Of a stretch of 64,000 nt of DNA, positions 17,361 through 49,817 are shown piece after piece. The translations under genes and the position numbers were made by a program. The stretch is from Breznakia pachnodae (lineage in GTDB: Bacteria > Bacillota_I > Bacilli_A > Erysipelotrichales > Erysipelotrichaceae). Where the stretch lies: assembly GCF_030814225.1 (NCBI RefSeq), contig NZ_JAUSUR010000002.1, forward strand, positions 186,001-250,000. The letters are read 5' to 3'. Position 1 is the first letter of the stretch. Every line of letters begins with the position of its first letter. Below the pieces are notes generated by a model. It made no database searches. It saw only the letters and a list, made by a program, of their open reading frames with translations, and was not told the origin of the DNA.

Positions 17361-17389
17361 ATTAGTCGCTGTAAAGTTATAAATCGTTC
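17361..17389 (-). promoter_or_regulatory. Putative ECF-type promoter of sigma module 1
   Basis: On the minus strand GAAC, 17 bases, CGACTAAT, the same arrangement found before the pilus operon and sigma module 2. It lies 37 bp before the sigma start codon, as expected for autoregulation. A TATAAT hexamer directly abuts the GAAC, so a SigA promoter is also possible. Confidence 0.6.
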
Positions 17390-17418
17390 ATTATATTTTA
17401 CTTAATTTTATACTTTTA

Positions 17419-17862
17419 TTATTGCTCACACTCTAGCCCTAATGCTTCATAATTATCAAACAATGATTTTAACTTTACTGTTTTCGCATCATCACTACTC
17501 TTTGTTATTAAACCAAGTTTTGATAATGCATCTAAATCTCCTTCTTCTAAATCTATTTCTAATATTTCAGTATAAACATTATCTTTTATCTCATAACTAT
17601 AACTGACACCATTTACCGTTTTGATTGTTGTTTCATATTCTTTTCCATTCGTTTCTAAATCTTCTTTGGTATAACTGCTTTCTTCAATATTGATTTTTGT
17701 AGTATAGGCAACCAATACTACTTTGTTATCATCTTTCTCATATTCTATATCAACGCTTAATTCCTGAATGTCCTCTTTGCGAGTACATACAGCATTCTCA
17801 TTTGAGTTTCCACATGCTACTAGAAATAACATGCTAAAAATAACTAAAATACATTTTTTCAT
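17419..17862 (-). CDS. Small lipoprotein, YehR/DUF1307-like
   Basis: A 147-residue exported lipoprotein. The signal peptide ends in the lipobox LVAC, with the lipidated Cys near residue 17. The mature part is acidic and has the layout of YehR/DUF1307-type lipoproteins, with a Cys near the start (VCTRKED) and another at the very end (LGLECEQ). The function of that family is unknown. I take the ATG at 17862 because GGAGGGC precedes it; an ATG four codons earlier overlaps that site. A paralogue lies at 19981-20418. An AAAC-N17-CAACTAAT element upstream suggests joint control with the sigma-linked surface genes. Confidence 0.8.
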   Translation of the reverse strand: MKKCILVIFSMLFLVACGNSNENAVCTRKEDIQELSVDIEYEKDDNKVVLVAYTTKINIEESSYTKEDLETNGKEYETTIKTVNGVSYSYEIKDNVYTEILEIDLEEGDLDALSKLGLITKSSDDAKTVKLKSLFDNYEALGLECEQ

Positions 17863-17899
17863 CTTGCCCTCCATGACAAAAATAGTCCACTATGTATTT

Positions 17900-17928
17900 A
17901 TTAGTTGCTTTTATTTGATGAAAGGTTT
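17900..17928 (-). promoter_or_regulatory. Putative ECF-type promoter of the lipoprotein gene
   Basis: On the minus strand AAAC, 17 bases, CAACTAAT, ending 37 bp before the start codon. It differs by one base in each half from the GAAC-N17-CGACTAAT elements. The AAACCTTTCAT left half also resembles GAACCTTTCAT before sigma module 3. Confidence 0.5.
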
Positions 17929-17940
17929 GATAAAAAGATG

Positions 17941-17970
17941 AAAAAAGTTCTGCATCAATCAACAGAACTT
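17941..17970 (-). terminator. Terminator upstream of the lipoprotein gene
   Basis: On the minus strand AAGTTCTG and CAGAACTT flank a ten-base loop, followed by TTTTTT. It ends any read-through from fhs or from the candidate small RNA before the lipoprotein promoter. Confidence 0.8.
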
Positions 17971-18029
17971 CGTAATATCATTATTTTTTTACTATTTGGT
18001 GCTTTCGATCTTATTCTATAAATATAATC

Positions 18030-18120
18030 AAAAAATACTCTTAGGCTCGTCACTTCCCGAATGGTGGGAGGATTACTGCTAAGAGTACACTTTAACGGTT
18101 GCAGTACACTTTCGTGCTGC
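18030..18120 (-). ncRNA. Candidate small RNA of about 91 nt with C-rich loop
   Basis: This lies in a 308-bp gap without a gene. A near-consensus promoter (18127-18155) points leftward and should start RNA near 18120. The RNA would form a 5' hairpin with a GAAA loop (CACGAAAGTG inside TGCAG/CTGCA). A second hairpin follows, ACTCTTAG with CTAAGAGT, and then TTTTTT, which is a terminator. The second loop carries CCTCCCACC (plus 18063-18071), which is complementary to Shine-Dalgarno sequences, as in CU-rich trans-acting small RNAs. I cannot match it to 6S, SRP, tmRNA or a known riboswitch. Confidence 0.55.
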
Positions 18121-18126
18121 ACCATT

Positions 18127-18155
18127 ATAATACACTTTTCTCTGCATTTATGCAA
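18127..18155 (-). promoter_or_regulatory. SigA-type promoter of the candidate small RNA
   Basis: On the minus strand TTGCAT, 17 bases, TATTAT. No coding sequence with a ribosome site follows within 250 bp, which is why I read it as an RNA promoter. Confidence 0.6.
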
Positions 18156-18182
18156 TAGAATAAGAATATTTATTTCGGTTTT

Positions 18183-19853
18183 TTAGAACAATCCAACAAT
18201 ATTTCCTTCTTCATCAATATCCATACGATTTGCTGCTGGAACTTTTGGCAGACCTGGCATTGTCATTACACTACCTGTAAGAGCAACAATAAATCCTGCT
18301 CCTAAAGATGGGCGTAATTCACGAATGGTAATTGTGAAGTCTTTTGGTGCTCCACAGATTTTTGCATCATCAGTTAAGCTTGTAGGAACCTTTGCCATAC
18401 AGATTGGTAGATTATCCCAACCATTTTTTTCAAACAATGCAATTTGTTCTTTTGCCTCTTCACTATATGCAACATCTTTTGCACCATAGCAAGTTTGAGC
18501 AATCGTTAAGATTTTATTTTCAATTGTATCTTCTACTTCATAAAGCGGTTTGTAATTGTTCTCCATTTCTACTAGATCAACTAAGATTTCAGCAAGATCA
18601 ACTGCTCCTGCACCTCCCTTGGCCCACACTTGTGATAGTGCCATTGGGTGTCCATGAGTTTTACACCAATCTTGCAGTGCTTCCACTTCTTCTTTTGTAT
18701 CTGTTGCAAATTCATTGATTGCAACTACATATGGTAATCCAAATGCTTGGATTGTTTCAATATGTTTTTTAAGGTTACAGCAACCTTCTAACATTGCATC
18801 AACATTTTCTTTTTGAAGATCTTCATATGCAATATTACCATGTTGTTTTAATGCACGAATTGTTGCAACAATTACAACTGCATTTGGTTTTAGATTTGCT
18901 TTACGACATTTGATGTCTAAGAACTTCTCTGCACCTAAGTCTGCTCCAAATCCTGCTTCTGTTATTACATAGTCTGCTAACTTCAGACAAGTCTTTGTAG
19001 CTAGTACACTGTTACATCCATGAGCAATATTTGCAAATGGACCACCGTGGATCAGTACTGGATTGTTTTCAATTGTTTGTACTAGGTTTGGCTTGATTGC
19101 ATCTTTCATAACCATTGCCAAAGCACCAGCAATTTCTAAATCCTTTACATATACTGCTTCTCCATCCATATTATACGCAACTAGCATATTTCCTAGTTTT
19201 TCTTTTAAATCCATAAGTGAATCAGCAAGACATAACACTGCCATTACTTCGCTGGCCACTGTGATATTAAAACCATCTTTTCTTTCGACACCATTTGCTT
19301 TTGGACCTAGTCCAACTTCAACTTGACGAAGAACACGATCATTCATATCTAACACACGTTTGAATACAACACGGTCCTTATCAATATTTAATACATTTCC
19401 TTGGTGAATATGATTATCCAGACATGCACTAATTAAATTATTACATGTAGTAATTGCATGCATATCACCAGTAAAGTGAAGATTAATATCTTCCATTGGT
19501 ACAACTTGTGCATATCCTCCACCAGCTGCTCCACCTTTTAATCCAAACACTGGACCTAGTGATGGTTCACGTAATGCAACCATTGCATTCTTTCCAATCT
19601 TTTGAAAAGCGTCCACAAGACCTACAGTAGTTGTTGATTTTCCTTCTCCTGCTTTTGTTGGATTGATTGCTGTTACTAAAATCAGTTTCCCATCCTCTTC
19701 GTTTTTTCGTTCCTTTAACACATCCAAAGATACTTTGGCTTTGTAGTTACCATAATACTCGATATCTTCTACTGGAATCCCTGCCTTCTTGGCAATTTCA
19801 TCAATTTTCATCATTGTTGCTTCTTGGGCAATTTCTAAATCAGTTTTGTACAT
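18183..19853 (-). CDS. fhs: Formate-tetrahydrofolate ligase
   Basis: This enzyme joins formate to tetrahydrofolate with ATP, giving 10-formyl-THF for purine and initiator-tRNA synthesis. The 556 residues match the family length. The phosphate-binding loop [19 protein letters not shown] is near residues 62-80. [49 protein letters not shown] and the C-terminal [15 protein letters not shown] plus [11 protein letters not shown] blocks are all intact. It has its own promoter (19882-19910) and is a single-gene unit. I found no folate-type riboswitch in its short leader. Confidence 0.97.
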
Positions 19854-19881
19854 ATGAGTCTCCTATTACATTTACACAAAT

Positions 19882-19910
19882 ATTGTATCGCATTTTTGAT
19901 TCATTAACAA
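19882..19910 (-). promoter_or_regulatory. SigA-type promoter of fhs
   Basis: On the minus strand TTGTTA, 17 bases, TACAAT, about 30 bp before the fhs start codon. Confidence 0.65.
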
Positions 19911-19946
19911 TTTACTATTCATTTCTTTTTTCTTTTGAGTATTAAA

Positions 19947-19975
19947 AAGAAAAAAGTGATCATTTCTGACCACTT
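19947..19975 (-). terminator. Terminator of the second lipoprotein gene
   Basis: On the minus strand AAGTGGTC pairs with GATCACTT over a six-base loop and is followed by TTTTTC. Confidence 0.85.
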
Positions 19976-19980
19976 ATCAA

Positions 19981-20418
19981 TTATTTAGAAGTACAAGTAT
20001 ATCCTTCATCTTCTAGTGCAGTTTTTGCTGACTTTGTAGTAAATGTTCCATCTTCACTTAATAAATCATCTACAAGTAAGTCTTCTGCTTTATAATCGTC
20101 CATATTATAAGTTAATGTTCCTGTAAACACTTTATCTTTTTCTTCATACTTATAACTCATTTCTTCGTATTGTTCATAATATGTAACATTATCATCTTGA
20201 TCTGTTTTATAACTTTCAATTGTTTCATCACTTTCTCCACTTAAATCATCTTCGAAAGTTTCGTATAATTCTGTTACCTTATCATCCTCTACTGTAAATA
20301 CAAAAGATGATTTTGATAACTCATCCTCAATCGTACAAGTAGTCGTATCACCACCACTATCACCACAACCGCCGACAAACATCATTAGTCCTAATGAAAT
20401 AACTATTAATTTTTTCAT
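19981..20418 (-). CDS. Small lipoprotein, YehR/DUF1307-like (paralogue)
   Basis: A 145-residue lipoprotein with signal peptide and lipobox FVGGC (Cys near residue 18), then a Gly/Asp spacer. The mature region begins TTTCTIEDELSKSSFVFTV and ends DEGYTCTSK, giving the paired early and late Cys residues also seen in the 17419-17862 protein. The mature part is strongly acidic. The two genes flank fhs and the candidate small RNA, on the same strand, and look like paralogues. GGAGGC precedes the ATG. The function of this lipoprotein type is unknown. Confidence 0.82.
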   Translation of the reverse strand: MKKLIVISLGLMMFVGGCGDSGGDTTTCTIEDELSKSSFVFTVEDDKVTELYETFEDDLSGESDETIESYKTDQDDNVTYYEQYEEMSYKYEEKDKVFTGTLTYNMDDYKAEDLLVDDLLSEDGTFTTKSAKTALEDEGYTCTSK

Positions 20419-20526
20419 AATTGCCTCCTAACTAATATACTATCGGTTACTCACAAAAGTTTCAATGATTTATTGAGAAAATTCACAAAACATTCATGTT
20501 ATAATGCTTTATAAGAGGATATTTCT

Positions 20527-21264
20527 ATGAATAATATAAAAGAACAGTTTGCAATTGATCTTAATTGTAAACCAGAAGAATTAGAAAATAATATATTTGT
20601 ATATGCTTCACCAAATGATCATACTTCTGCAGAATCAAGAAGTAATGGAATTATTATCATTTACAAAGGAAAACTGTATATTCGTTTGGACCATGAAGAC
20701 TTAACATTAAAGTTAGAAAATAAATACAAAGAAAAAGTGAGTGATTGGTTTTTTGAACCATCCAATATTATGCAGCTAGAATCTTTACTGCTTGAGCATG
20801 ATTATTTCATCTCTGAGTGGAAAATGTATTTTCTTCCTTTTAATGATGAGTTACATGATATTGATACAACAAACTTAGTGTATTATCACGATGATGAACT
20901 TATGCAGTTCAAAGGTGATAGTCGCTTTGATGAATGCTTTATGTATGATGAGGCATATCCGGATCGCATTGGGATTGCTTATGTTGAAGATGGAGAAATA
21001 CTGGGAATGTGTGGGAGTAACCAGACCGGAACCTATATGTTTGAAATGGGAATAAACACTATACCAGGAAGTGAAGGAAAAGGAATTGCACCACTATTGG
21101 TAAAAGCAACCATGAATGAAATCAGAAGAATATCAGATAATACATGTATTCCAGTATATGGAACGCAGTTCTCTCATATGCGTTCTATTAATGTGGCTTT
21201 ACGTAGTGGATATAAAGCAGGATGGACACAAATTAATATCTTGAAGAAAAAGAAAGGAAATTAG
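20527..21264 (+). CDS. GNAT-family acetyltransferase with N-terminal extension
   Basis: A 245-residue protein whose C-terminal half (about 115-240) has the GNAT fold. IGIAYVEDGEILGMCGSN forms the central strands. The acetyl-CoA-binding turn is seen in MGINTIPGSEGKGIAPLLVKATM, with a variant of the usual Q/RxxGxG/A signature. NVALRSGYKAGWTQI is the late strand. The N-terminal half (about 1-110) is a separate mixed domain. The substrate is unknown. The gene begins an operon with 21267, 21930 and 22772 and has an extended -10 (TGTTATAAT at 20497-20505). Confidence 0.8.
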   Translation: MNNIKEQFAIDLNCKPEELENNIFVYASPNDHTSAESRSNGIIIIYKGKLYIRLDHEDLTLKLENKYKEKVSDWFFEPSNIMQLESLLLEHDYFISEWKMYFLPFNDELHDIDTTNLVYYHDDELMQFKGDSRFDECFMYDEAYPDRIGIAYVEDGEILGMCGSNQTGTYMFEMGINTIPGSEGKGIAPLLVKATMNEIRRISDNTCIPVYGTQFSHMRSINVALRSGYKAGWTQINILKKKKGN

Positions 21265-21266
21265 TT

Positions 21267-21926
21267 ATGATAAGTGCAGAAAGCAGAAAACAAAAATCAA
21301 TTGAAAAATTAAATGAATTGGATATTCCTTATATTGAACATTTACCAGTAATTGAAACAAGTGATTCTTTTGAAGCAAGAACTGTAGAAGAAGTCGTACG
21401 TCGTGCTGCAGCTTCATTCTTTACAATTCAACATGCCTGTGACATTATGGCAGAAACGGATGTTGAACAGTCAAAGGAATTCTTTTTATCAATGCTTGAT
21501 AAATGGGGATTAATGGATGATCTTACAAATAAAGAAAAAGCAATTTTTGATGGAACGAGTTCAAATCAGGATGCTATTAACATGGTCTGGAAATATGAGG
21601 CAAACTATCCATTGCTTTGGTATCTTGGACTAATTGATGAACTTGATGTTCCTAATCACATTTGTGATACCAATACCGTGATTCAGATATTCCAAAATAA
21701 CGCTTCTGTGGAAGAATTATGTAAGGCATCTACTTTACGTGATGTAGAAGAATTATTGGATGAAGCAGATTTAATTTATCGTTACAACTGGGCTTGTGTA
21801 GATCATCGAGTAAACCAAAACAAAGATCCTAATTTGGATCCAGGTGTTGTATACGAAAGACACTGGGGACTTAACTGGCTGATTCGTTATGATGAAGATT
21901 GGGATTTTGTTTCAACGGACACATAA
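21267..21926 (+). CDS. DUF4272 domain protein
   Basis: A 219-residue protein matching the DUF4272 pattern along its whole length. It contains RKQKSIEKLNELDIPYIEHLPV at the start, EARTVEEVVRRAAASF, WKYEANYPLLWYLGLIDELDVP in the middle, and DEADLIYRYNWACVDHRVNQ with DPGVVYERHWGLNWLI at the end. The role of this family is unknown; members often occur in clusters of small cytoplasmic genes with SMI1/KNR4-like or immunity-like proteins. It starts 2 bp after the GNAT gene, so the two are translated together. Confidence 0.85.
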   Translation: MISAESRKQKSIEKLNELDIPYIEHLPVIETSDSFEARTVEEVVRRAAASFFTIQHACDIMAETDVEQSKEFFLSMLDKWGLMDDLTNKEKAIFDGTSSNQDAINMVWKYEANYPLLWYLGLIDELDVPNHICDTNTVIQIFQNNASVEELCKASTLRDVEELLDEADLIYRYNWACVDHRVNQNKDPNLDPGVVYERHWGLNWLIRYDEDWDFVSTDT

Positions 21927-21929
21927 GAT

Positions 21930-22766
21930 ATGAAAAAAGATTATTATACTCAATCACTGGAGATGTTGATTTATCTGATAGATATCTATCAAATTGATAG
22001 CGAAAATAGTAATTGGATCAATTGGTTACAGGAAGATATTCGTGCATGGAATAACACTCAGAGTGTTGAGCATCATACACAGGCTTATGGTGGTACAGGC
22101 TCTTTTAATGACCTTGCACTTTTAAAGATGCCAAAAGACAAACAATTGATCTTTGATACATTAAAAGATTTTTGTTATCAGTTTACCTTCTTTTATAAAC
22201 GAATTCATAGTGATCCTAACGTTTTAGAAAAAGAACTTTTACATGAAATTGTATTTAAGATAAAAGACAAAAATGTATCTGTTTATCTTATAGAGGGATT
22301 ACAAAGTGGTGATTTTTTATCTTTTTATAAAGATGATCTTGTTTATAATAAAATTGTTAATATCCGCTTTACTCGTGATAGTGTTTGTATGGCTGATGAT
22401 GTGATGGATAACAGTAGAACGTATCCATGTAATATCAATCACCTCTATGAGTCTATTATTACAATTGTAAAAGAACATCATTTCCTTGCAAGTATATCAG
22501 GAAATAATGTTGTATGGGTTCTATATAATCATCTTCATAAAGAAATATTATCTTATTATACAAAAGTTGATAAAGTTATCAGAATTATGAATAAACATAG
22601 TATTGATGAAGTATGTGAAGGTGAATACACTTTACACTTTCGCTATATAACATCACCAAAAGTACGTAAAGAACAATTAATGGAATCCTATAACTATAAG
22701 ATGCGTGAAATGTATATTAATGGTTTAAAAGAAGAACTGGAACTTTGTGATAAGTTAGGAGAATAG
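21930..22766 (+). CDS. Protein of unknown function, DUF6966-like N terminus
   Basis: I do not firmly recognise this 278-residue protein. Residues 10-65 (LEMLIYLIDIYQIDSENSNWINWL, then AYGGTGSFNDLALL) resemble the small DUF6966 domain found with immunity-type genes; that assignment is tentative. The rest is a soluble alpha/beta region rich in aromatic residues with no visible catalytic motif. It starts three bases after the DUF4272 stop with only a weak ribosome site, which points to translational coupling within the operon. Confidence 0.7.
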   Translation: MKKDYYTQSLEMLIYLIDIYQIDSENSNWINWLQEDIRAWNNTQSVEHHTQAYGGTGSFNDLALLKMPKDKQLIFDTLKDFCYQFTFFYKRIHSDPNVLEKELLHEIVFKIKDKNVSVYLIEGLQSGDFLSFYKDDLVYNKIVNIRFTRDSVCMADDVMDNSRTYPCNINHLYESIITIVKEHHFLASISGNNVVWVLYNHLHKEILSYYTKVDKVIRIMNKHSIDEVCEGEYTLHFRYITSPKVRKEQLMESYNYKMREMYINGLKEELELCDKLGE

Positions 22767-22771
22767 TTTAC

Positions 22772-23218
22772 ATGAATAATATAGATTTCTCACAACCTGA
22801 TGTCCTCCTGTTATTTGGAGGGTTAACATTCGCTATCCTTATATTTATGATAGTTCTTTTCATTGTATTTCGATTATTCAAATTGTATATTCCAAAATCT
22901 AAATTATTTAATGATGACTATATAAAACAATCAATTCGAAACACCAGTATACTAAGAAAAAGCTGTTTGGTAGTGTTTACTATTCAAGTCATAGTGGCAG
23001 TATTGTGGCATTTCAATATTATTAGTTTCATTCCTAAAGATAGTTTTCCTTTTATTGGTATCTTTATTGTATTTATGACGCTGATGATGGTGATTGGTCT
23101 TGGACCCGTTCTGGTAAGATCAAGACACTATACAAAGAATTTTAAAGAGTACTTAAATGGTACAGATATTAATAATCAAATTAGAAATAAACGAATGTAT
23201 ATAAATAGAAAATTGTAA
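22772..23218 (+). CDS. Small membrane protein of unknown function
   Basis: A 148-residue protein with three hydrophobic segments: about residues 12-36 (LLLFGGLTFAILIFMIVLFIVF), 66-84 and 92-112. A basic loop (SIRNTSILRKS) lies between the first and second, and the hydrophilic tail ends RNKRMYINRKL. No family is recognised. It is the last gene of the four-gene operon and is followed by a bidirectional terminator. A TAGGAGAATAG ribosome site lies just before the ATG. Confidence 0.72.
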   Translation: MNNIDFSQPDVLLLFGGLTFAILIFMIVLFIVFRLFKLYIPKSKLFNDDYIKQSIRNTSILRKSCLVVFTIQVIVAVLWHFNIISFIPKDSFPFIGIFIVFMTLMMVIGLGPVLVRSRHYTKNFKEYLNGTDINNQIRNKRMYINRKL

Positions 23219-23256
23219 AAAAGATGTTACTTCTTGTTGTTGAGTAACATCTTTCT
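23219..23256. terminator. Bidirectional terminator between convergent operons
   Basis: AAGATGTTACT and AGTAACATCTT form an eleven-base-pair stem. T-runs follow on both strands, so it serves the rightward GNAT operon and the leftward beta-glucoside operon. Confidence 0.85.
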
Positions 23257-23263
23257 TACTTAT

Positions 23264-26523: not shown

Positions 26524-26533
26524 AATTTTTTCT

Positions 26534-26574
26534 CCTTTTTGTTCAAAAAGGTTTTGCCCTTACGGTAACAAGCC
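26534..26574 (-). promoter_or_regulatory. RAT antiterminator site overlapping a hairpin that sequesters the EIIBCA ribosome site
   Basis: On the minus strand GGCTTGTTACC...GGGCAAAACC (plus 26550-26574) matches the BglG/LicT ribonucleic antiterminator consensus. Its 3' CC overlaps the 5' arm of CCTTTTT-GAAC-AAAAAGG (plus 26534-26551). The 3' arm contains part of the AAGGAG ribosome site, and there is no T-run after it. Binding of the regulator to the RAT would therefore free the ribosome site as well as, or instead of, blocking termination. Confidence 0.7.
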
Positions 26575-26581
26575 AACTATT

Positions 26582-27421
26582 TTATTTTTTATAACTTCGA
26601 CTAATGTGTATAGCCAAATATAATCTTTCATCTTTTGTCATTGTATATTGATAAGAATGATACAAGTATTTTTCAATCGTATCGATACTTTTTTCAATCA
26701 CACTATCAATTTTATAAAATGTTTGATTATCTGCAATTTCGATCGCCTCACCTCTTTTCTCTTGATCATCTTGAAGTATTCTTTTCGCAAAGTACCGAAG
26801 ATGTGTAATCAACCTTTGTCCATCCAATGATGTTTCATCAATACTCATCATTAATGACACTCTGATAATTTTCAAAATATCTGCTACAATTTCAGTCATT
26901 TTAACAGCTAATCCAGTATCTCTGTTTGATGACTGATTATTTACAAAATGAAGTGCAATCTGAACTGCTTCTTCTTCATCCATCGTAAGATTATAATATT
27001 CATTTATTCTTTCTACTGCATATTCTCCAATCGCATATTCTTTTTGATAAAAGTGTTTAACATCATAACTCAATGGACTCTTCAAAAATATATGATTTGA
27101 AAAGCGTTCAATTGCAAAACTAATATGTTCTAGAAAAGCTAAATAAACAAAATCATGTATTTCACTTTCTAATAAATTTGATGCATAAGTAACTACTTCA
27201 TCAGCAATTGTTATATTTAATTCTGGAGTTGTTTTAAGCAATCGACTAAAGTCTTCAACTAACTTATGAGAATTCAAAATAAAGGTTTTATCAATTTCTT
27301 CTGGCAATACTTCATCTCCCACTTTTTTTCTAAACCCAATCCCTGTGGCTATAACGATTATTTCATCTTTTTGTTTAGATGCAATAATTACATTATTGTT
27401 TAGAACTTGCTTTACATACAT
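26582..27421 (-). CDS. LicT/BglG-type transcriptional antiterminator
   Basis: This 279-residue RNA-binding regulator has a co-antiterminator domain (about 1-55: YVKQVLNNNVIIA, GIGFRKKVGDEV) and two PTS regulation domains with the usual His positions (LEHISFAIERF, YDVKHFYQKEYAIGEYAVERI, LHFVNNQ, LITHLRYFAKRIL, LAIHISRSYK). In this family the PTS phosphorylates the PRDs, so the protein binds RAT RNA only when the sugar is present. The ATG at 27421 is chosen because AAAGGAGG precedes it. Its own leader carries a RAT and an overlapping terminator, indicating self-control. Confidence 0.93.
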   Translation of the reverse strand: MYVKQVLNNNVIIASKQKDEIIVIATGIGFRKKVGDEVLPEEIDKTFILNSHKLVEDFSRLLKTTPELNITIADEVVTYASNLLESEIHDFVYLAFLEHISFAIERFSNHIFLKSPLSYDVKHFYQKEYAIGEYAVERINEYYNLTMDEEEAVQIALHFVNNQSSNRDTGLAVKMTEIVADILKIIRVSLMMSIDETSLDGQRLITHLRYFAKRILQDDQEKRGEAIEIADNQTFYKIDSVIEKSIDTIEKYLYHSYQYTMTKDERLYLAIHISRSYKK

Positions 27422-41655: not shown

Positions 41656-41690
41656 ATTATCTACACAGAAACAATGCAGGAAAATAATTA

Positions 41691-41730
41691 CCTTAATTCA
41701 TTAAAATAACGATGAATTAAGGTTTTTTTC
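41691..41730 (+). terminator. Terminator of the lactate permease gene
   Basis: CCTTAATTCAT and ATGAATTAAGG form an eleven-base-pair stem followed by TTTTTTTC. Confidence 0.9.
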
Positions 41731-41791
41731 ACTATTTATACTTTCAATTTTCACAAAAATATATTACGATTAAATAAATTTGACAAAAAAT

Positions 41792-41820
41792 GAACTGTTT
41801 TCAAATAAAATACGACTAAT
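41792..41820 (+). promoter_or_regulatory. Putative ECF-type promoter of the pilus operon
   Basis: GAAC (41792-41795), 17 bases, CGACTAAT (41813-41820). This is the same arrangement as before sigma modules 1 and 2. It lies in the 468-bp gap before the pilus genes and implies a leader of roughly 300 nt. A TTGACA at 41780 overlaps the region, but its best -10 is poorly spaced. Confidence 0.6.
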
Positions 41821-41942
41821 GTATGAGAAAAAGTAGTAATATTTTTCAGGGAAATTTGAACGAAATTCAGGTTCATGTTGTCTAAATAAAAGTAGGGCGA
41901 TTCAAAATTTAGCATTAAACATTACATTCTTTCAGTTATTTT

Positions 41943-42044
41943 GAAAAGATATACTTAGAATATCTTTTCATTAGCTGTTTTATGCTTAATCCAATAATCT
42001 CCTATTCCGTATTTTTGGCAACTGTCAAGAAAACGGAATTTTGA
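41943..42044 (+). promoter_or_regulatory. Two hairpins in the pilus operon leader
   Basis: The first hairpin pairs GAAAAGATAT with ATATCTTTTC (41943-41969). The second pairs ATTCCG plus TTTT with AAAA plus CGGAAT (42004-42039) and is followed by TTTTGATTTTA, which looks like a weak terminator. They may attenuate pilus transcription. I see no small gene in this 468-bp gap. Confidence 0.4.
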
Positions 42045-42123
42045 TTTTATTAGGAAGAGTTTAAATTTCTAATTTAATGTTTCTAATTTTGAACATGTAA
42101 TCTTATTGCTTTAAGTTACTTAA

Positions 42124-42663
42124 TTGGTTGGAGGTGATAACATCAACACAGAAACAGATAAACAAAAGCCCATACATTTTAAAGGTGAACTAAAACGATT
42201 ATTAATAAAGATAGCAATTATAATCGTTGTATTCATTTGCTTGTTTACCTTTGTATTTGGATTATTCCAAAACAGTGATAATGCAATGTCTCCAGCAGTA
42301 AACAATGGAGATTTGGTTCTGTATTATCGTTTAGATAAGGACTACAAAGCAAATGATGTGATTGTTGTTAATTACAACAGTGAAAACCAAATAAGAAGAG
42401 TAATTGCTGTAGCAGGAGATGAAGTTGACATCACAAGTGAAGGGCTTGTGATCAATGGTTCATTGCAGAATGAATCAAAAATATATCGGGAAACACTTCC
42501 CTATAGTGAAGGGATTACCTTCCCTGTCACCGTAAAGGAAGGAGAAGTATTTGTCCTTGGTGATGATCGATATAATGCAATTGATTCAAGAATATATGGC
42601 TGTGTAAAAATTAGCGACACGAAGGGAACACTAATAACCATACTAAGAAGAAGTGGATTTTAA
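42124..42663 (+). CDS. Signal peptidase I homologue lacking catalytic Ser and Lys (SipA-like pilus accessory)
   Basis: A protein with one N-terminal membrane anchor (about 27-48) and the S26 signal-peptidase fold: NGDLVLYYRL, RRVIAVAGDEVDI, VKEGEVFVLGDDRYNAIDSR. The motif that should read S-M-x-P is N-A-M-S-P, so the nucleophile is Ala54. The usual KR of box D is Arg91-Arg92, so the general-base Lys is also gone. Streptococcal SipA of FCT pilus islands is likewise catalytically dead and is needed for pilus assembly. Start: TTG at 42124 has no ribosome site, whereas a perfect GGAGGTGAT (42130-42138) points to an in-frame ATC at 42142. First gene of the pilus operon. Confidence 0.85.
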   Translation: MVGGDNINTETDKQKPIHFKGELKRLLIKIAIIIVVFICLFTFVFGLFQNSDNAMSPAVNNGDLVLYYRLDKDYKANDVIVVNYNSENQIRRVIAVAGDEVDITSEGLVINGSLQNESKIYRETLPYSEGITFPVTVKEGEVFVLGDDRYNAIDSRIYGCVKISDTKGTLITILRRSGF

Positions 42664-42740
42664 TGGTCTTACGAAATGACAGAAAACTTTCGAAAAAGGG
42701 CGTTGCAAAAACAGGGCTCCATATTAATAAGGAGAAATTA

Positions 42741-44003
42741 ATGAGAAAAATTAAGAAAATAGTATCAATATTTATGATTGCTGCAGTAGCATTTACTGTA
42801 GCAGTAACAAACACTAGTATTAATGCAGATGATTCTGCTAAAGGTGCATATTCATCTGCACCAGGAACTGATGCAGTAGTGAAAATCACAAAAGAAATCG
42901 TTGCTGGTGAAGGAGTATCTTTGGACACAGCTGAAAGATTCACATTTACAGCAGCATTGAAAGAAGTAAGCACAGGTACTTATACTGATGCTACATATAA
43001 TAGTGTTAAATCATTATCAACATATGTTGATTTTGCTATTAATACTAATGGTGATAATTTAATAGCGGAAACTAACAATATATTTACAGGAACAACTTAT
43101 CCACATGCTGGAATTTATGTTTATACAGTAACCGAATCTACTACCAATGCAAATGGACACTTAATTGCTGGTGAAACATATACAATGTATGTTTATGTAT
43201 ATAACAAACCAGATACCAATCAACTTGAAGAAGGATACGATGGAACATATATTCACGCAGTAACAGTTGCTGTAGGAGATTTATCTGCTGGTGATTTAAC
43301 AACTGACCCAGATATTGAAGATAAAAAAGTTGACTTAACTTATGATTCATCTGGTGATGTGACTGGAACTGGATTTAGATTCAAAGGTTATTACAATGAA
43401 GCAACTGGATTAGATATTCAGAAGAAAGTTGAAGGTGACTTGGTTAATTTAAACGATGAATATGACTTTACTGTTGTGTTTACATTCCCAAGTAGTGTTG
43501 AAGATGTACCTTCATCAGTTGGTGGTCCAGCTGCAACTCAATTTACATTTGCTGGAATTACTTACACAATTAAAAAAGATGCTACAACAATATCGTCAGG
43601 AAATGCAACTAGCAATACTGTAACATTCAAATTAAAAGCTGATGAGATTATTACATTTGATAATTTACCAGCAGGGACAACTTATACAGTAACTGAAGCC
43701 GTACCAAATGGTTTTACTGCAAGTGCATCAGTAACTGAAAAAGGTGCTACATATAACGAAAACAGCGTTCAAGTTAGTTCTGGACAAGTACAAGCAGATA
43801 GAGGGAATGGAATGACTCCAAATTTATTAGCCGCTGAAAAGAAAGATGGTTCAGCTCAAAATAAAGTTGTATATAAAAATACTGAAACTGATGTTAGTAT
43901 CACAGGATTAATCATTGATAACCTACCATTTATTGCTTTAATGGGAGTTGGTATTGTAGGACTAGTATATATTGCTTTAAACAAGAAACGTAAAAGTATT
44001 TAA
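42741..44003 (+). CDS. Major pilin-like protein with isopeptide-type domains
   Basis: A 420-residue secreted protein with a signal peptide (KKIVSIFMIAAVAFTVAVTNTSINA) and two FctA/CnaB-like beta domains (about 45-200 and 230-375). Each has features of self-formed Lys-Asn bonds: ITKEI and DIQKKV lysine strands, E-box strands YVYTVTEST and YTVTEAVPNG, and a closing YKNT. The C-terminal sorting signal is VSITG, a hydrophobic helix and KKRKS. It lies between the SipA-like and sortase genes, the position of the FctA backbone pilin in streptococcal islands. GGAG precedes the ATG at 42741. Confidence 0.85.
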   Translation: MRKIKKIVSIFMIAAVAFTVAVTNTSINADDSAKGAYSSAPGTDAVVKITKEIVAGEGVSLDTAERFTFTAALKEVSTGTYTDATYNSVKSLSTYVDFAINTNGDNLIAETNNIFTGTTYPHAGIYVYTVTESTTNANGHLIAGETYTMYVYVYNKPDTNQLEEGYDGTYIHAVTVAVGDLSAGDLTTDPDIEDKKVDLTYDSSGDVTGTGFRFKGYYNEATGLDIQKKVEGDLVNLNDEYDFTVVFTFPSSVEDVPSSVGGPAATQFTFAGITYTIKKDATTISSGNATSNTVTFKLKADEIITFDNLPAGTTYTVTEAVPNGFTASASVTEKGATYNENSVQVSSGQVQADRGNGMTPNLLAAEKKDGSAQNKVVYKNTETDVSITGLIIDNLPFIALMGVGIVGLVYIALNKKRKSI

Positions 44004-44014
44004 TCATTAAAAAA

Positions 44015-45019
44015 ATGAAACAGCAAGAACACAATTCAGAGATTAATAAAACTGAATTAAAAAAGATAAAGATCGTTCATAAAATTAGTAATACAATTGA
44101 TAATATTTTAATGATTATCTTTATCTTATTACTGTTCTATGGAAGTTATGCATTGTATGACTCTAATCAGGTTCATAATGCATCAACTGCAACACAATAT
44201 GAGCAATATAAACCTTCAAGTGATGATACTCTATCCTTTGAAGAACTAAAAGAAATAAATAGTGATGTGAAGGCATGGTTAAGTGTATATGGAACAAATA
44301 TCGATTACCCTGTTGTTCACTCTACAAATAATCAAAAGTATTTAAATACAAATGCTTTAGGTGAGGCTTCCTTATCTGGAGCAATCTATATGGATTTTAG
44401 AAACAGTGAGGACTTTAGTGATTTTAATACCATCATTTATGGTCATCATATGGAAAAACAAACCATGTTTGGAGAATTGGATTTATTTAAAGATGAAGAA
44501 TACTTTGAAGAACATGAATATGGAAACTTATACTATAATGGTGAAGATCATGGAATAGAATTCTTTGCATTCTTAGAAGCGGATGCTTATGATTCTTATT
44601 TATATTCACCAATAAAGATGACGAATACAAACCGATTTGAATATATTGAATATATCAAAAGTAATGCAATGAATTATCGTGATATAGAAATTGGTGAAAA
44701 TGATCAAATCGTAGTATTAAGTACTTGTGCATCTTTACAAACAAATGGAAGATATGTGGTAGTTGGAAAAATAAGTAATGAATTGTATGAAAATACATAT
44801 ATAGAAGAACGTAATAGTGGTGGAATATTTAGTAATGTTCCCTACTCAATAATTGATTTCTTATTAGCGAATCCGCTAATTGGTATCTTTGTATTAATAA
44901 TACTAATTATCTTAATATTATTGATACTCCAACAAATAGCCAGAATAATTGAACGACATAAACGCAAAAAAAGATTGGAGGAATTGAATGAAAATAATCA
45001 AGAATCTAATACAACTTAA
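44015..45019 (+). CDS. Class B sortase, pilus type
   Basis: A 334-residue transpeptidase with an N-terminal membrane helix (about 29-46) and a second C-terminal one (about 285-307), followed by a basic tail. The class B core contains DVKAWLSVYGTNIDYPVV and SGAIYMDFRN. IYGHHMEKQTMFGEL holds the catalytic His near 144, LSTCASLQTNGRYVVVGK holds the catalytic Cys near 238, and the Arg is near 246. Class B sortases build the FCT-3 type pili of Streptococcus pyogenes. Its likely substrates are the VSITG and VSVTG proteins on either side. The ATG has only a weak ribosome site, 12 bp after the pilin gene. Confidence 0.92.
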   Translation: MKQQEHNSEINKTELKKIKIVHKISNTIDNILMIIFILLLFYGSYALYDSNQVHNASTATQYEQYKPSSDDTLSFEELKEINSDVKAWLSVYGTNIDYPVVHSTNNQKYLNTNALGEASLSGAIYMDFRNSEDFSDFNTIIYGHHMEKQTMFGELDLFKDEEYFEEHEYGNLYYNGEDHGIEFFAFLEADAYDSYLYSPIKMTNTNRFEYIEYIKSNAMNYRDIEIGENDQIVVLSTCASLQTNGRYVVVGKISNELYENTYIEERNSGGIFSNVPYSIIDFLLANPLIGIFVLIILIILILLILQQIARIIERHKRKKRLEELNENNQESNTT

Positions 45020-45659
45020 TTTAATCATCTTTATCCTCTTTTCTGTGTTTACTAATTCCATTGGTGCTATTGAAGTAACAACAATATCAATTGATATTAA
45101 TCAAGAAGTAACAAAGAATGTGGATAAAGATGTAACATACAACTATATCGTAAAGGCACTTGATGGTTCACCTTTACCAAATAATGAAAGTGAATATAGT
45201 TTTTCAATTACGAATACAAGTAGCAAAACAATTGACTTCACTTTCACTGAAGCAGGATATTATCATTATCAAGTCTATCAGGTAACTGGTAGTGATAACG
45301 ATAATACATACGATGAAAAAGTATATGAAGTAAGAATCTATTTAAGAGAAAGTGGTTTACAAACAATTATCTTAATGGATTATGAAAGTGATTCTAAAGT
45401 TGATGAAATTCTATTTCATAATACTTACAATAATTCAGATAACTCAAATAACAAACCTAATCCTGGTGACAATTCAAATAATGGAACGAATACACCTGGA
45501 AACAATACAGGACACAGCAGTAATCCAAGTATAGCTCCTGACAACAACGGTGTTGATACATCAGATTCTACGAGTATGTTTAGTTTATTACTTCTATGTC
45601 TTGCCAGTGGGTTGGTTATAATCAGATATAAGAAGGAGGTAGCATATGAAAAGAATTAA
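44988..45659 (+). CDS. Minor (basal) pilin-like protein
   Basis: A 223-residue secreted protein. A signal peptide (about 1-26) is followed by one FctA/Spy0128-like domain (about 30-145) with a tyrosine-rich strand, YYHYQVYQVTGSDND, and a closing FHNTY. A flexible Asn/Pro/Gly-rich stalk (about 148-190) and a sorting signal, GVDTSD plus helix plus RYKK, follow. A stalk and a sorting signal of the non-pilus type fit a base subunit that joins the fibre to the wall, as FctB does. Its start lies 32 bases inside the sortase gene, after a strong GGAGGAATTG site. Confidence 0.8.
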   Translation: MKIIKNLIQLNLIIFILFSVFTNSIGAIEVTTISIDINQEVTKNVDKDVTYNYIVKALDGSPLPNNESEYSFSITNTSSKTIDFTFTEAGYYHYQVYQVTGSDNDNTYDEKVYEVRIYLRESGLQTIILMDYESDSKVDEILFHNTYNNSDNSNNKPNPGDNSNNGTNTPGNNTGHSSNPSIAPDNNGVDTSDSTSMFSLLLLCLASGLVIIRYKKEVAYEKN

Positions 45660-48600
45660 AAAAGCTCCTCTACTTCTATCGTTATTACTAATATTCTCAC
45701 TTATTGCTTCACCAAATATCTCTCAAGTATTTGCTGATGACAATGGAAGTAGTGAAAACGAAGTAATTACAGAAGAAACAAACACTAACGAAGTTGAAAA
45801 TGAAATAGAAGAACCAACACAAGGATCAATCAGTGGTTTGGTTTGGTTCGATAAAAACGAGAATGGAATAAAAGAATCTAACGAAAGTATAATTTCGGGA
45901 GTAGCATTATATTTATATAGAACAGAAGATAAATCTAATGTCATCACTCAAACAGCTAGCGATACAAACGGAAACTATGTATTCGATAACTTAGATAAAG
46001 GAAGTTACTATGTAGCAGTTAGAGCACAGGCTATTAATGGGACAAATTATTTAGTTCCAATAGCTAGTATTCAAACTGGAAGTGATAATAAATTTGATGT
46101 GGATTATTCGATTGAACCTGTTGCATCGTATAGCAGTTCAATAAATGTAAGTGAAAATGATGTAATTAATATTAATGCAGGTATGCGAAAACAGCAAACG
46201 ATTGTTCCATTAAGTGGTTCTTATATTGTTACAAATGATACTACAAGTGAAACCTCCCCTTTTTCTTCATTAAACGAAGCAGTTGCATCTTGTACAATTT
46301 CAACATATAAATATACCATTACTGCAAACGCGAACGACACAAGTATAGGTGATGTAATCACAATTAAAGCAGATCAAGATATCACAATCACTTCCGCCAC
46401 TTTATCAACAGTTAGTCTAAAGCAAGATAAAGATGGAGATCGCCATTTCATTGTAGAGGGAACCTTAACATTAGATAATGTAATATTGGAAGGTAATGGA
46501 AACTCTGCTGACGGGAATGAAAATGGTGGAGTAAAAGTTAATAGTGGTGGCTCATTGACGGTTGAAAGTGATGCAACCATTCAATCTTGTAACTGGGATA
46601 AGGGTGGTGCGATTAACTCTGATAATGGAACTATTATAATCAAAGGGTCTATCATTAACAACAATGCAAAAAGTGATGGTGGTGGAATCTATCTTACTGG
46701 AAGTGGTGGTAAACCATCTCATCTTACGATTACTGATGGTGCTGTAATCAGTAATAATAAAGCTCAAAACGGAGCCGGTATTTATTCTAACTGGCAAGCA
46801 ACCATAGACATCAAAGGTGGTAGTATTACTTCTAATGCTGCTAGTAATGAAGGTGGTGGAATCCACTTCAACAGTGGAACAATCAATATGTCTGGTGGTA
46901 GTGTCGATAATAACTCTAGTAAGAATGTTGCTGGAGGTATTAAAGCAACCGATGGTGCAACTGTAACTCTTAGTGGTGGTAAAATCGATAAAAATACTTC
47001 TAATTATGGTGGTGGTCTTCTTGTTGAAGATAGTACACTTATTCTAAGTGGTGCTGATATCATCAACAATACTGCTAACAGTGAAGGTGGTGGAGTTAAA
47101 GTTGATAGATCAACAGTTAAAATGAGTGCTGGTAAAGTCGATGCTAATACTGCCAATAGTAGTGGTGGTGGATTTTACTTAACTGGTGGAGCTGGAAACC
47201 CACCTAAATTTGAATTAACTAATGGTAGTGTTAGCAACAATAAAGCTCATGATGGTGCTGGTATTTATTCTAATTGGAAAGCTGAAATTGAAATTATTGA
47301 TGGTAGTATTACTACTAATACTGCTTCCAATGATGGAGCTGGTATTCATTTTAACAGTGGAACCCTAAACATGTCTGGTGGTAGTGTTGACAATAATACA
47401 AGTACACATGCTGCTGGTGGAATCAAAGTGTCCGATGGAGCTACTGTAACCATCAGTGGTGGTGTAATTGATGCAAATACATCTGGAACTAACGGTGGTG
47501 GAATACATATTGAAGACAGTACACTCAACTTTACTAATGGGAAAATCACAGGAAACAGTGCTACTGGCGAAGGTGGTGGAGTTAGAGCTAATCGTTCAAC
47601 AATCCAAATAGACAGTGGAAATATCGAATATAATACTGCTTCAAATGGTGCAGGAATTTATATCAGTGGTGACTCTAATAATTTTAGTTCAATTAATCTT
47701 AAAGGTGGTAGTATAAACAATAATACCGCCTCTAGTGATGGCGGTGGAATTAGAAGTACATCTTATGTAACAATCACTATTGATAGTGGAAATATCAATG
47801 ATAACAAAGGTACTTATGGAGCTGGAATATCCGCAAATAATAATAGTACAATAATTTTAAATAGTGGAAAAATTACAAATAATACTAACGCCAGTAGAGG
47901 TGGTGGAGTAAACATTGATAATCGTTCTACTTCTATCACAATTAACGGTGGTGAAATTAGTTATAATGAAGCTTCTGATGGTGGTGGTATCATCGCTACT
48001 GATGGTGCATCAATCACAATTACAAATGGAACTATAAATAACAATAAAGCCTCTGCAAAAGGTGGTGCTATTGATGCAAGTAATGATTGTACAATTAGTA
48101 TGACTGGTGGAAGTATTATTGATAATCAGTCTTCAGGTTCTGGCGGTGGAATCTATGCTGCTGGCAACACAATCACAATTACTAGTGGAACTTTCACAAA
48201 TAACTTATCTGGTGATGATGGAGGTGGAATCTATCATACTGATGGTACGCTAACAATTGAATCAAACTCTATATTTTCTAAAAATAGTGCAACTGTAGAT
48301 GGTGGTGCAATTCGGGTAACTACAGGTACTTCACTTACTATCAATAATAGTAAAATAGAAGATAACACTGCTGCTCATGGGGCTGGATTTTCTGCTAATA
48401 ACAATAGTAAAGTTATCATTGATAGTAGTAGTTTCAACGATAATATTGCAACTCAACGTGGTGGTGGTATCAATATAGATAACTCAACTACAATGAAGAT
48501 TACTGATAGTACAATCACTGATAATGAAGCAAACACTGGTGGTGGAATAATTGCCAGCCTTAACTCAACCATTGATTTGGATGATTGTACAATTACTGGA

Positions 48601-49728
48601 AACTCTGTTACAGGTGATGGAGGAGCAATAAAGTTAGAGAATTCAATACTAACTATTGAAAATGCAACAATTGATAATAATCAATCAGTTAGTCATGGTG
48701 GAGGTATTTATCTAACATGGGGAAGTAATCTAACAATAAACAAAGGTTCAATTACAAATAATAATGCGGGTAGAGACGGCGGTGGAATATATACAGAAAA
48801 ATCTTCATATAAAGATCCTGTAGAATCAACAGGTTATTCAAATATTTCTGTTGATAAAGATAATGTGACTGTAAATTCAAACACAGCTTCTACAACTTCT
48901 AACACTCCCTCAAATGCTTCATCAATTACAAATTTTAATGGTAATTTACTTAATAATAATGATATAAACTATTATCCAGAGAAAATTGCAGTAACTTATT
49001 ATGGAAACGGTGGACAACCTGATTATATAGAAGAGGATTATAATATGTCAGATCCTGTTACCGTAAAAAGTCAAAGTCAACTTGGCTTTACAGCACCTAC
49101 TTCTACACCAAATTATGTAATAAGATATTGGACTACTGATCCTACAGGTGAAGGTGGTATTCAGTATAAAGCGGATGGTAATGATAGTTTCGTTATTACT
49201 GAACATGTAGCACTTTATGCAGTATGGGGACCAGCATCTACGATAAGTGGATACGTATTTGAAGATACAAATAAAAATGGTTCGATTGATAGTGATGAAG
49301 AATTATCAGATAAAGTGGTTTCATTATTTAAATATGATGAATCACAATCAAAGTATGTTGATACTGGAGAAACTTATACTACAGACTCGGACGGTAAATA
49401 CACTTTTGAAGTTGATATGAATTCAAAATACAAAGTCTACTTCAAAGTAACTGATGGTGAATTAGGTAAACTTGGATTCACCACAAAAGGTAATGCATCT
49501 AGCACTACAAGTAGTCATGCAAATCAAGATGGATTCTCAGATCCGATTGAAACTGAACTAAACGAAGACTATACTGTCAATGCCGGATATTTACCATCTG
49601 TATCAGTGACAGGACTTGATGGTGTTTCTCTAGCATGGATAGTTATTGCACTTGGATCTTGTATTGCAATTGCATTGTTATATATAACTAAAAAGCGTAA
49701 TAAAGCAAGATTACTAAATAAATCGTAA
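45646..49728 (+). CDS. Large pilus-associated adhesin: SdrD-B domains and right-handed beta-helix
   Basis: A 1360-residue surface protein. After the signal peptide (about 1-30) comes an SdrD-B domain (about 65-175: SISGLVWFDKNENGIKESNE). A very long right-handed beta-helix (about 230-1080) has recurring turns such as GGGIY, SGGSI and NNTAS, and an InlB-like repeat lies near 1120-1200. A second SdrD-B domain (ISGYVFEDTNKNGSIDSDE, about 1205-1310) precedes a VSVTG sorting signal, a helix and KKRNKARLL. The tail matches the major pilin signal, so the class B sortase may add it to the pilus, probably as the tip. Beta-helix proteins often bind or cleave glycans; no catalytic site is visible. GAAGGAGG precedes the ATG. 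Confidence 0.88.
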   Translation: MKRIKKAPLLLSLLLIFSLIASPNISQVFADDNGSSENEVITEETNTNEVENEIEEPTQGSISGLVWFDKNENGIKESNESIISGVALYLYRTEDKSNVITQTASDTNGNYVFDNLDKGSYYVAVRAQAINGTNYLVPIASIQTGSDNKFDVDYSIEPVASYSSSINVSENDVININAGMRKQQTIVPLSGSYIVTNDTTSETSPFSSLNEAVASCTISTYKYTITANANDTSIGDVITIKADQDITITSATLSTVSLKQDKDGDRHFIVEGTLTLDNVILEGNGNSADGNENGGVKVNSGGSLTVESDATIQSCNWDKGGAINSDNGTIIIKGSIINNNAKSDGGGIYLTGSGGKPSHLTITDGAVISNNKAQNGAGIYSNWQATIDIKGGSITSNAASNEGGGIHFNSGTINMSGGSVDNNSSKNVAGGIKATDGATVTLSGGKIDKNTSNYGGGLLVEDSTLILSGADIINNTANSEGGGVKVDRSTVKMSAGKVDANTANSSGGGFYLTGGAGNPPKFELTNGSVSNNKAHDGAGIYSNWKAEIEIIDGSITTNTASNDGAGIHFNSGTLNMSGGSVDNNTSTHAAGGIKVSDGATVTISGGVIDANTSGTNGGGIHIEDSTLNFTNGKITGNSATGEGGGVRANRSTIQIDSGNIEYNTASNGAGIYISGDSNNFSSINLKGGSINNNTASSDGGGIRSTSYVTITIDSGNINDNKGTYGAGISANNNSTIILNSGKITNNTNASRGGGVNIDNRSTSITINGGEISYNEASDGGGIIATDGASITITNGTINNNKASAKGGAIDASNDCTISMTGGSIIDNQSSGSGGGIYAAGNTITITSGTFTNNLSGDDGGGIYHTDGTLTIESNSIFSKNSATVDGGAIRVTTGTSLTINNSKIEDNTAAHGAGFSANNNSKVIIDSSSFNDNIATQRGGGINIDNSTTMKITDSTITDNEANTGGGIIASLNSTIDLDDCTITGNSVTGDGGAIKLENSILTIENATIDNNQSVSHGGGIYLTWGSNLTINKGSITNNNAGRDGGGIYTEKSSYKDPVESTGYSNISVDKDNVTVNSNTASTTSNTPSNASSITNFNGNLLNNNDINYYPEKIAVTYYGNGGQPDYIEEDYNMSDPVTVKSQSQLGFTAPTSTPNYVIRYWTTDPTGEGGIQYKADGNDSFVITEHVALYAVWGPASTISGYVFEDTNKNGSIDSDEELSDKVVSLFKYDESQSKYVDTGETYTTDSDGKYTFEVDMNSKYKVYFKVTDGELGKLGFTTKGNASSTTSSHANQDGFSDPIETELNEDYTVNAGYLPSVSVTGLDGVSLAWIVIALGSCIAIALLYITKKRNKARLLNKS
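46420..48870 (+). repeat. Beta-helix repeat region of the pilus adhesin gene
   Basis: Around thirty short coils with recurring GGTGGTGGAAT (GGGI) and AATAAT/AATACT (NN, NT) codons. Two stretches, about 46700-46960 and 47180-47450, are close copies at both DNA and protein level (SNNKAxxGAGIYSNWxAxIxI), a recent internal duplication. Confidence 0.75.
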
Positions 49729-49735
49729 TACTCTA

Positions 49736-49763
49736 AAACTTCAGATTAATCTGGAGTTTTTTT
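49736..49763 (+). terminator. Terminator of the pilus operon
   Basis: AAACTTCAGA pairs with TCTGGAGTTT (one G-T pair) over a four-base loop and is followed by TTTTC. Confidence 0.85.
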
Positions 49764-49788
49764 CTGTTCAAAATGGATAAAATAAACT

Positions 49789-49817
49789 GAACTAAACTGT
49801 CTCAAACAACGACTAAT
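49789..49817 (+). promoter_or_regulatory. Putative ECF-type promoter (distal) of sigma module 2
   Basis: GAAC (49789-49792), 17 bases, CGACTAAT (49810-49817), identical in both halves and in spacing to the pilus and module 1 elements. It lies 169 bp before the sigma start codon. Confidence 0.6.

Follow-up and report, generated by a model that had tools for sequence, protein, structure and literature searches.

Which sigma factor reads a promoter-like element that stands, in identical form, before two sigma-factor genes and a pilus operon? The question is raised by a stretch of 64,000 nucleotides of the Breznakia pachnodae genome (RefSeq assembly GCF_030814225.1, contig NZ_JAUSUR010000002.1; C2:186001-250000 in our numbering), here called the window. 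In it the element GAAC-N17-CGACTAAT, referred to as P1, was found in three exact copies, at 17361-17389 on the minus strand and at 41792-41820 and 49789-49817 on the plus strand, as the original prediction, made from the letters of the window, had it; 100 dinucleotide shuffles of the 64 kb yielded none. With slightly better than even confidence we favour the following answer from sequence comparison: P1 would be a shared promoter of the extracytoplasmic function (ECF) type which is read by a subgroup of the extended sigma factors of this genome, and a second element closer to the gene, P2, would provide each sigma factor with its own positive feedback. The P1 sites and the sigma genes of the window are:

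17361..17389, minus strand: P1 of sigma module 1, GAACGATTTATAACTTTACAGCGACTAAT, 36 nucleotides (nt) before the likely start codon
16074..17324, minus strand: sigma module 1, an ECF sigma factor of 416 amino acids (aa) with one predicted transmembrane (TM) helix and a C-terminal extracytoplasmic part; length counted from the likely start, the open reading frame (ORF) being open from 17357
41792..41820, plus strand: P1 of the pilus operon, GAACTGTTTTCAAATAAAATACGACTAAT
49789..49817, plus strand: P1 of sigma module 2, GAACTAAACTGTCTCAAACAACGACTAAT, 168 nt before the start
49986..51317, plus strand: sigma module 2, an ECF sigma factor of 443 aa, TM helix at about residues 245-263, predicted beta-sandwich C-terminal domain
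59334..59362, minus strand: P1 of sigma module 3, GAACGATATCTCCAAAAATTACTACTAAT, one mismatch
57877..59223, minus strand: sigma module 3, an ECF sigma factor with a TM helix and an extracytoplasmic C-terminal domain, 448 aa when counted from the likely start

The search of the whole genome (4,301,580 bases in 22 contigs) that had been proposed as a check bore the motif out. Exact P1 was present 33 times and the reversed pattern, used as a control, not once; 26 of the 33 copies lay upstream of sigma genes and one, at C2:180867, within an ORF of the opposite strand. GAACG-N16-CGACTAAT with at most one mismatch gave 52 sites compared to 2 for the control. When the spacer was freed to 13-21 bases, 35 matches were obtained against 1 in the control, 33 of them with 17 bases; the two with 16 bases were near-identical sequences on contigs C10 and C15. 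The consensus of the 52 sites was A-N-TGAACGA(T/A)A, followed by an AT-rich unconserved spacer and CGACTAAT, and the column counts showed a nearly invariant core and a spacer near background. The flank upstream of the sites was A-rich, and G was enriched 5 and 6 bases past CGACTAAT (32/52 and 31/52 sites). The GAAC -35, the CG-containing -10, the fixed 17-base spacer and the downstream G enrichment agreed with the ECF-type appearance claimed earlier, and P1 is likely a shared ECF-type promoter. The common ECF pattern is AAC in the -35 and CGT in the -10; P1 has the GAAC -35 and a CGAC -10.

The genes behind P1 belong mostly to one large family. Sigma region 2 (Sigma70_r2) was matched 72 times in the genome; 62 matches were ECF-like proteins with a C-terminal extension, nine were short ECF factors and one was housekeeping-like by score and length. 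The shortest extended sigma factor (C1:959600) has 273 aa. We sorted the 62 into clade A (n = 23, the largest clade), group B (n = 23) and group C (n = 16), and a hydropathy scan predicted a membrane helix in 58. The three window sigma factors matched Sigma70_r2 and r4 above cut-off, region 3 was not matched; TIGR02937 was above cut-off as well, and the profile matches in the PDB were SigW and sigma-E. A Pfam search with these three proteins returned nothing outside the sigma domain, i.e. no recognisable anti-sigma domain, nor was one found among the best 25 of the 80-84 NCBIfam matches per protein, which a divergent domain could escape. A structure model of sigma 2 (mean predicted local distance difference test, pLDDT, 80; predicted template modelling score, pTM, 0.47; 23 aligned sequences) comprised the ECF part, a long helix at residues 232-263 and a C-terminal beta-sandwich region. 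Its top structural match was SigW; immunoglobulin (Ig)/FN3-like proteins appeared further down with weak scores and presumably belong to the C-terminal part of the model. Sequence matches to this C-terminal region (about residues 290-442) extended into the other groups.

For the leaders of these genes P1 was defined as TGAAC, 17 bases and at least 5/8 letters of CGACTAAT or CGTCTAAT, with A as the third -10 letter. By this rule it preceded 46 of the 62 extended-sigma genes: 23/23 in clade A, 13/23 in group B and 10/16 in group C. Nine more had T as the third -10 letter (CGTCTAA-like). The next gene within 500 bases was called secreted or anchored on the basis of a hydrophobic N terminus and a C-terminal helix. 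Such a neighbour was predicted in 42/46 P1 cassettes and in 9/9 with the CGTCTAA-like -10, compared to 2/7 with neither element, and at the C terminus many of the surface proteins had a sorting-signal-like VNTGDTTN stretch followed by a helix and basic residues. In the window the genes governed by P1, apart from the sigma genes, would be:

14877..16064, minus strand: predicted secreted protein of 395 aa with a single TM helix, encoded after sigma 1, without a Pfam match
5396..14761, minus strand: 3121-aa ORF after the 395-aa protein, predicted giant surface protein, no Pfam match
42124..49728, plus strand: pilus operon (signal peptidase I, FctA/DUF7601 pilin, sortase, FctA-like pilin, beta-helix/SdrD-like protein of 1360 aa)
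51354..54035, plus strand: surface protein of sigma 2 with leucine-rich repeats (LRR) and Endotoxin_C2 repeats, sorting-signal-like C terminus
55397..57850, minus strand: surface protein in the cassette of sigma 3, with LRR and Endotoxin_C2 repeats

The seven exact P1 sites away from sigma genes included those of the pilus operon, of a glgC-like gene and of ORFs of 873 and 1107 aa with signal-like N termini; another stood before the ORF at C8:192131, which has a hydrophobic N terminus. A perfect P1 at C5:210448-210476 (L094) lay 405 bases upstream of a 127-aa serine-recombinase-like ORF with no sigma gene adjoining, possibly an interrupted cassette. The sequence data support P1 as the mark of a single candidate regulon, made up of sigma genes, genes for surface proteins and the pilus operon. 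To this extent the single regulon first envisaged was retained; a lipoprotein gene counted among its members was not. The near match at 17900-17928 exists, with two mismatches. However, at up to two mismatches the window contained 8 matches, the three exact ones included, where 3.57 were expected, and as many as 8 were also seen in 1 of 100 shuffles; on this evidence the lipoprotein site is indistinguishable from chance, and its membership was rejected.

A second ECF-like element, P2, was seen between P1 and the start codon in 20 of the 23 clade-A leaders. The site at 59267-59295, previously taken as the P1 copy of module 3, proved to be such a P2; a better P1 is located 67 bases upstream, at 59334-59362 on the minus strand. 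The elements of the window are:

49914..49942, plus strand: P2 of sigma module 2, GAACA-N16-TATATAAG
49948..49954, plus strand: GGGTAAG element of sigma module 2
59267..59295, minus strand: P2 of sigma module 3, GAACC-N16-CACCTAAG, the site being read as GAACCTTTCATTATTTCAATGCACCTAAG
59253-59259, minus strand: GGGTAAG element of sigma module 3

Scores of at least 8.5 were reached in 18/23 clade-A leaders, whereas 200 shuffles averaged 0.29 and never exceeded 2. P2 consisted of a -35 (GAACC 13, CAACC 3, GAACA 2, GAACT 1 and AAACC 1; n = 20), a spacer of 17 bases in most and a -10 such as TATATAAG or CACCTAAG, with GGGTAAG 4-8 bases on. The latter motif or a close variant was present in all 23 clade-A leaders, in 0/23 of group B and in 2/16 of group C. 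As GGGTAAG, GGGCAAG or GGGTAGG it was located 35-47 bases before the start codon, directly past the P2 -10 where a P2 was seen, and it may be the start region of P2, or else an RNA element. Group B commonly had a proximal element with nGTCTAA or nATCTAA as -10; in many of these elements the -10 is nGTC. A genome-wide P2 regulon was considered and rejected: GAACCTTT-N16-18-TAAG had 3 matches, two of them cassette P2s, and the reversed control had 5. The CGTCTAA class, most cases of which were, like P2, 23-48 nt from the start, was likewise discarded as a mark of a sigma clade; its clustering on the tree was weak, and 18 of 500 shuffles were as low.

Does either element vary with the sigma factor encoded downstream? 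That base 4 of the P2 -10 pairs with residue 68 (numbering of sigma 2), which precedes the conserved F of loop L3, was first spotted by eye and then tested in clade A, with the -10 fixed by position alone and blind to its letters. Residue 68 ranked first of 132 variable columns for base 4 (5 of 100,000 permutations reached its value) and residue 63 second (49 of 100,000). With five near relatives, picked by hand from the tree, dropped and 15 rows left, 398 and 99 of 50,000 permutations reached the values of residues 68 and 63, respectively. Within base 4 the family-wise p was 0.005 for residue 63 and 0.048 for residue 68. T68 was paired with A in 4/4 cases, Y or H with G in 4/4, N and G with T in 3/3, A with C in 3/5, M with T in 2/3 and L with A in 1/1. 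The four Y/H68 sigma factors with base-4 G all carried V63, and base-4 G was found nowhere else. At the other end of the element, a GAACA -35 was present in both R171 proteins that have a P2 and in none of 18 K171 proteins. Residue 68 corresponded in the alignment to the Ala in the DSAFYTW stretch of E. coli sigma-E; together with residue 63 it falls within or close to the base-reading loop L3. That this loop reads one flipped-out -10 base is given as established in PMC8103513.

P1 behaved differently. Its -10 base 4 was C in 23/23 clade-A cassettes, although 18/23 of the own sigma factors are non-A at residue 68, and its -35 was GAACG in 21/23 and GAACT in 2/23, compared to GAACC or GAACA in the own P2 elements. 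Because of the constant base 4 and this -35, the own clade-A sigma factor probably does not read P1. The original prediction that P1 is recognised by these sigma factors was thus not supported for the factor whose gene directly follows it: it is P2, not P1, that varies with the putative DNA-reading residues, in 20/23 clade-A cassettes. Who, then, may read P1? Perhaps the best candidates are the group-C sigma factors whose residue 171 is N, S or G. All ten of their genes carry a P1-type or CGTCTAA element, seven within 60 nt of the start, compared to 1/6 of the group-C genes with K171. We infer two tiers because P1 in clade A stays constant while the own sigma factor varies and because the group-C N/S/G171 genes carry P1-type elements. 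P1, read by group-C sigma factors, would give every cassette a basal supply that is controlled by one common signal. The extracytoplasmic domain would sense something and then free or expose the sigma domain, and a sigma factor with engaged outer domain would amplify its own cassette via P2, such that one surface protein is raised among dozens.

A bolder version is possible but doubtful. It holds that the dozens of one-piece membrane sigma factors, each with its own adhesin gene, form a surface-repertoire selector, with P1 under a few master sigma factors and self-selection via a P2 base matched to the reading residue. If so, one genome would hold a natural, readable code for choosing the adhesin displayed. 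The two-tier scheme, if true, would provide about 20 natural pairs of sigma factor and private promoter in one clade from which to read how ECF paralogs stay apart, and the constant P1 in the same leaders would be a built-in control for the relation between L3 residue and flipped-out base. It would also be an unusual control of surface proteins, with sensor, sigma factor and adhesin in each cassette and global and private control in tandem.

Several observations weigh against the two-tier scheme or the code on which it draws. First, some loci do not fit. No clear P2 was seen in three of the 23 clade-A leaders (C1_1087887, C5_137443, C1_685847), neither P1 nor the CGTCTAA-like element preceded 7/62 extended-sigma genes, and window sigma 1 (K171, R68) has a P1 only, in proximal position 36 bases from the start. 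Exceptions to the pairing in clade A were A68 with T in C1_1271869 and in C2_491501 or C3_172468, depending on the spacer; M68 was found with T twice and with C once, and L68 with A once. Second, the discovery of the pairing by eye counts here, and when all 924 combinations of column and position were counted, the family-wise p from the z statistic was 0.14 for residue 63 and 0.57 for residue 68. The scan of the sigma leaders with a position weight matrix agreed with the counts of the P1 rule, and its null from reverse strands and reversed sequences did not exceed 6.7, save one score of 20.0 at a divergent pair on C1; the matrix was trained on sites that it then scored. Third, counts pooled over the groups (45 proximal elements) gave base 4 as C in 23/25 with A or S compared to 6/20 with other residues (p 2e-5), and -35 base 5 as C in 24/38 with K/R171 compared to 0/7 with N/S/G (p 0.0026), yet they partly reflect differences between clades, and the calling favoured base-4 C in groups B and C and base-5 C in clade A. 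Under the rule blind to base 4, groups B and C had C in 18/20 with A/S and in 5/5 with other residues, and -35 base 5 was C in 7/18 with K/R171 compared to 0/7 with N/S/G (p 0.13). A general rule of A/S to C was dropped, as it did not discriminate inside groups B and C. Because these groups show no discrimination, the sigma-promoter code is drawn from clade A, and its evidence is one clade of one genome. Finally, P1 as a set was present in no second genome among 315 of the order and 115 of the family.

The alternative that survives best is plain ECF autoregulation. Each sigma factor would read its own P1 and that of its paralogs in one cross-talking regulon, and P2 would be incidental or a second self-read promoter. 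Autoregulation is usual in ECF operons according to PMC8103513, most extended-sigma genes are preceded by P1, and base 4 is almost always C outside clade A, so groups B and C could read the P1 -10. Within clade A this reading has to accommodate a C at base 4 of every P1 next to own sigma factors that are mostly non-A at residue 68, and a covariation with the own sigma factor that sits in P2; we consider it unlikely. It is still less probable that P1 is read by a single master sigma factor that does not belong to the extended set, be it one of the nine short ECF factors or one not found, and that this factor switches all cassettes together. The near uniformity of P1 over deeply differing sigma clades would be expected from one reader. 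However, among the nine short ECF factors a P1-type element was found only at C1_1250518, none of the nine combines an N/S recognition helix with an A/S-F loop, and a P1-type or CGTCTAA element is the sole proximal element of seven group-C extended-sigma genes. That P1 is no promoter at all and instead a repressor or activator site common to the cassettes is very improbable: the conserved block, with A-N-TGAACG as its -35 half, does exceed a minimal ECF promoter, yet it is made of two half-sites with an exact, unconserved 17-base spacer, has an ECF-like -35 and -10, and is flanked by A-rich sequence upstream and by enriched G 5-6 bases downstream. Hardly credible is a passive relic carried along in cassette duplication, which the strong expansion of clade A with its common leader layout could suggest, since over 52 sites the core hardly varies and the spacer stays close to background, and P1 also precedes unrelated genes such as the pilus operon and the glgC-like gene.

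How does the proposed two-tier arrangement relate to known systems? Sigma-I paralog sets are the nearest functional parallel and membrane-fused ECF factors the nearest architecture. The latter, of the type of IutY (ECF243) and ECF48/52/53, are few per genome. According to PMC6056542, the sigma-I/RsgI systems of cellulolytic clostridia comprise many paralogous sigma factors, 16 in P. cellulosolvens, usually autoregulated from stringent promoters specific to each, and a 'universal' promoter type for key genes (cipA, cel48S) has been proposed. Many paralogous alternative sigma factors per genome and secreted or surface outputs are common to both. The sensor of the sigma-I systems, RsgI, is a membrane anti-sigma protein with a gene of its own, whereas here sigma factor and outer domain form one polypeptide, in 62 copies, and the next genes mostly encode predicted surface proteins instead of a separate RsgI. 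By the same account, sigma-I discrimination lies upstream of an A-tract -35 and the -10 is CGAA; here the -35 is GAAC and the -10 CGAC, base 4 of the -10 and perhaps base 5 of the -35 are the candidates for discrimination, and a single gene is preceded by both a shared and a private element in tandem.

In IutY and ECF48/52/53, as outlined in PMC8999054, the ECF domain is joined to TM helices and an outer region in one chain, and activation by proteolysis was shown for IutY and is expected for ECF48/52/53. The C-terminal extension with a TM helix, predicted in 58/62, is a shared feature. However, according to that paper those proteins carry anti-sigma-type fusions, a zinc-finger in ECF48/52/53, and none was matched in the three window sigma factors; moreover, the outer part here is a predicted beta-sandwich and the partner gene mostly that of a predicted surface protein. 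E. coli rpoE has several promoters, one of them autoregulated (PMC8103513). The tandem of outside-driven and self-driven promoters proposed here is similar, yet rpoE is one operon, whereas here many paralogous cassettes keep one element constant and the other private. A separate co-transcribed anti-sigma gene is not what usually adjoins the extended-sigma genes; in 42/46 P1 cassettes the neighbour is a predicted surface protein. Newer ECF classifications do not require such a gene (PMC8103513). We place the system as a variant of ECF regulation, outside the sigma-I/RsgI and membrane-fused ECF groups. A literature search judged by titles and abstract openings found no prior description, which is no proof of absence from print.

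The distribution of element and protein differed. TGAACG-N16-CGACTAA was found in 5/315 genomes of the order, 32 times in the own genome and once in each of four others; P1 is nearly absent from the 314 other genomes. The looser GAAC-N17-CGACTAA was found in 25/115 genomes of the family, with 44 in the own genome and at most 2 in others, where control counts were as high. Twelve sigma loci of three relatives (eight of 424-448 aa), scored with spacers of 16-18, had no score above 5.3, the best being at spacer 18, and the same-genus genome G107 had distant sigma relatives without the P1 element. A scan of genome contigs gave two unrelated loci and one of viral contigs none; a plasmid search had no match spanning 80% of the protein. 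A clade-A profile had matches at E 1e-30 in 23/315 genomes, at most five candidates being scored per genome; the best outside the own genome reached 161 bits, and the own ones listed had at least 659 bits. A protein search retrieved 95 homologues, of which 81 come from other genomes, with 38-61% identity bar one weaker match and some of them from 'Coprobacillaceae bacterium' assemblies and 'unclassified Breznakia'; the sigma family thus extends beyond this genome. In the same family, genus g51 has many extended ECF-like sigma candidates of 337-358 aa (L155-L157, L159-L161, L163, L174-L178); of 13 upstream regions there, one was unusable and the other 12 had a TTGACA stretch before the start and no near GAAC element, so that this genus seems to have expanded its sigma genes separately and without P1.

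Two further observations concern the arrangement of cassettes in B. pachnodae. The pilus leader (41821-42123, 303 bases) looks like a cassette leader without its sigma gene. It holds a GTAGGGCG stretch without evident ORF and the following element:

41858..41886, plus strand: second ECF-like element of the pilus leader, GAACG-N16-TGTCTAAA

The -10 of this element is identical to the proximal -10 of the sigma gene at C3:64966. Elsewhere on the contig of the window, at C2:490701-528675 (L063, L064), seven consecutive clade-A cassettes of sigma factor and surface protein follow one another within about 33 kb, spaced 3.8 to 8.0 kb apart.

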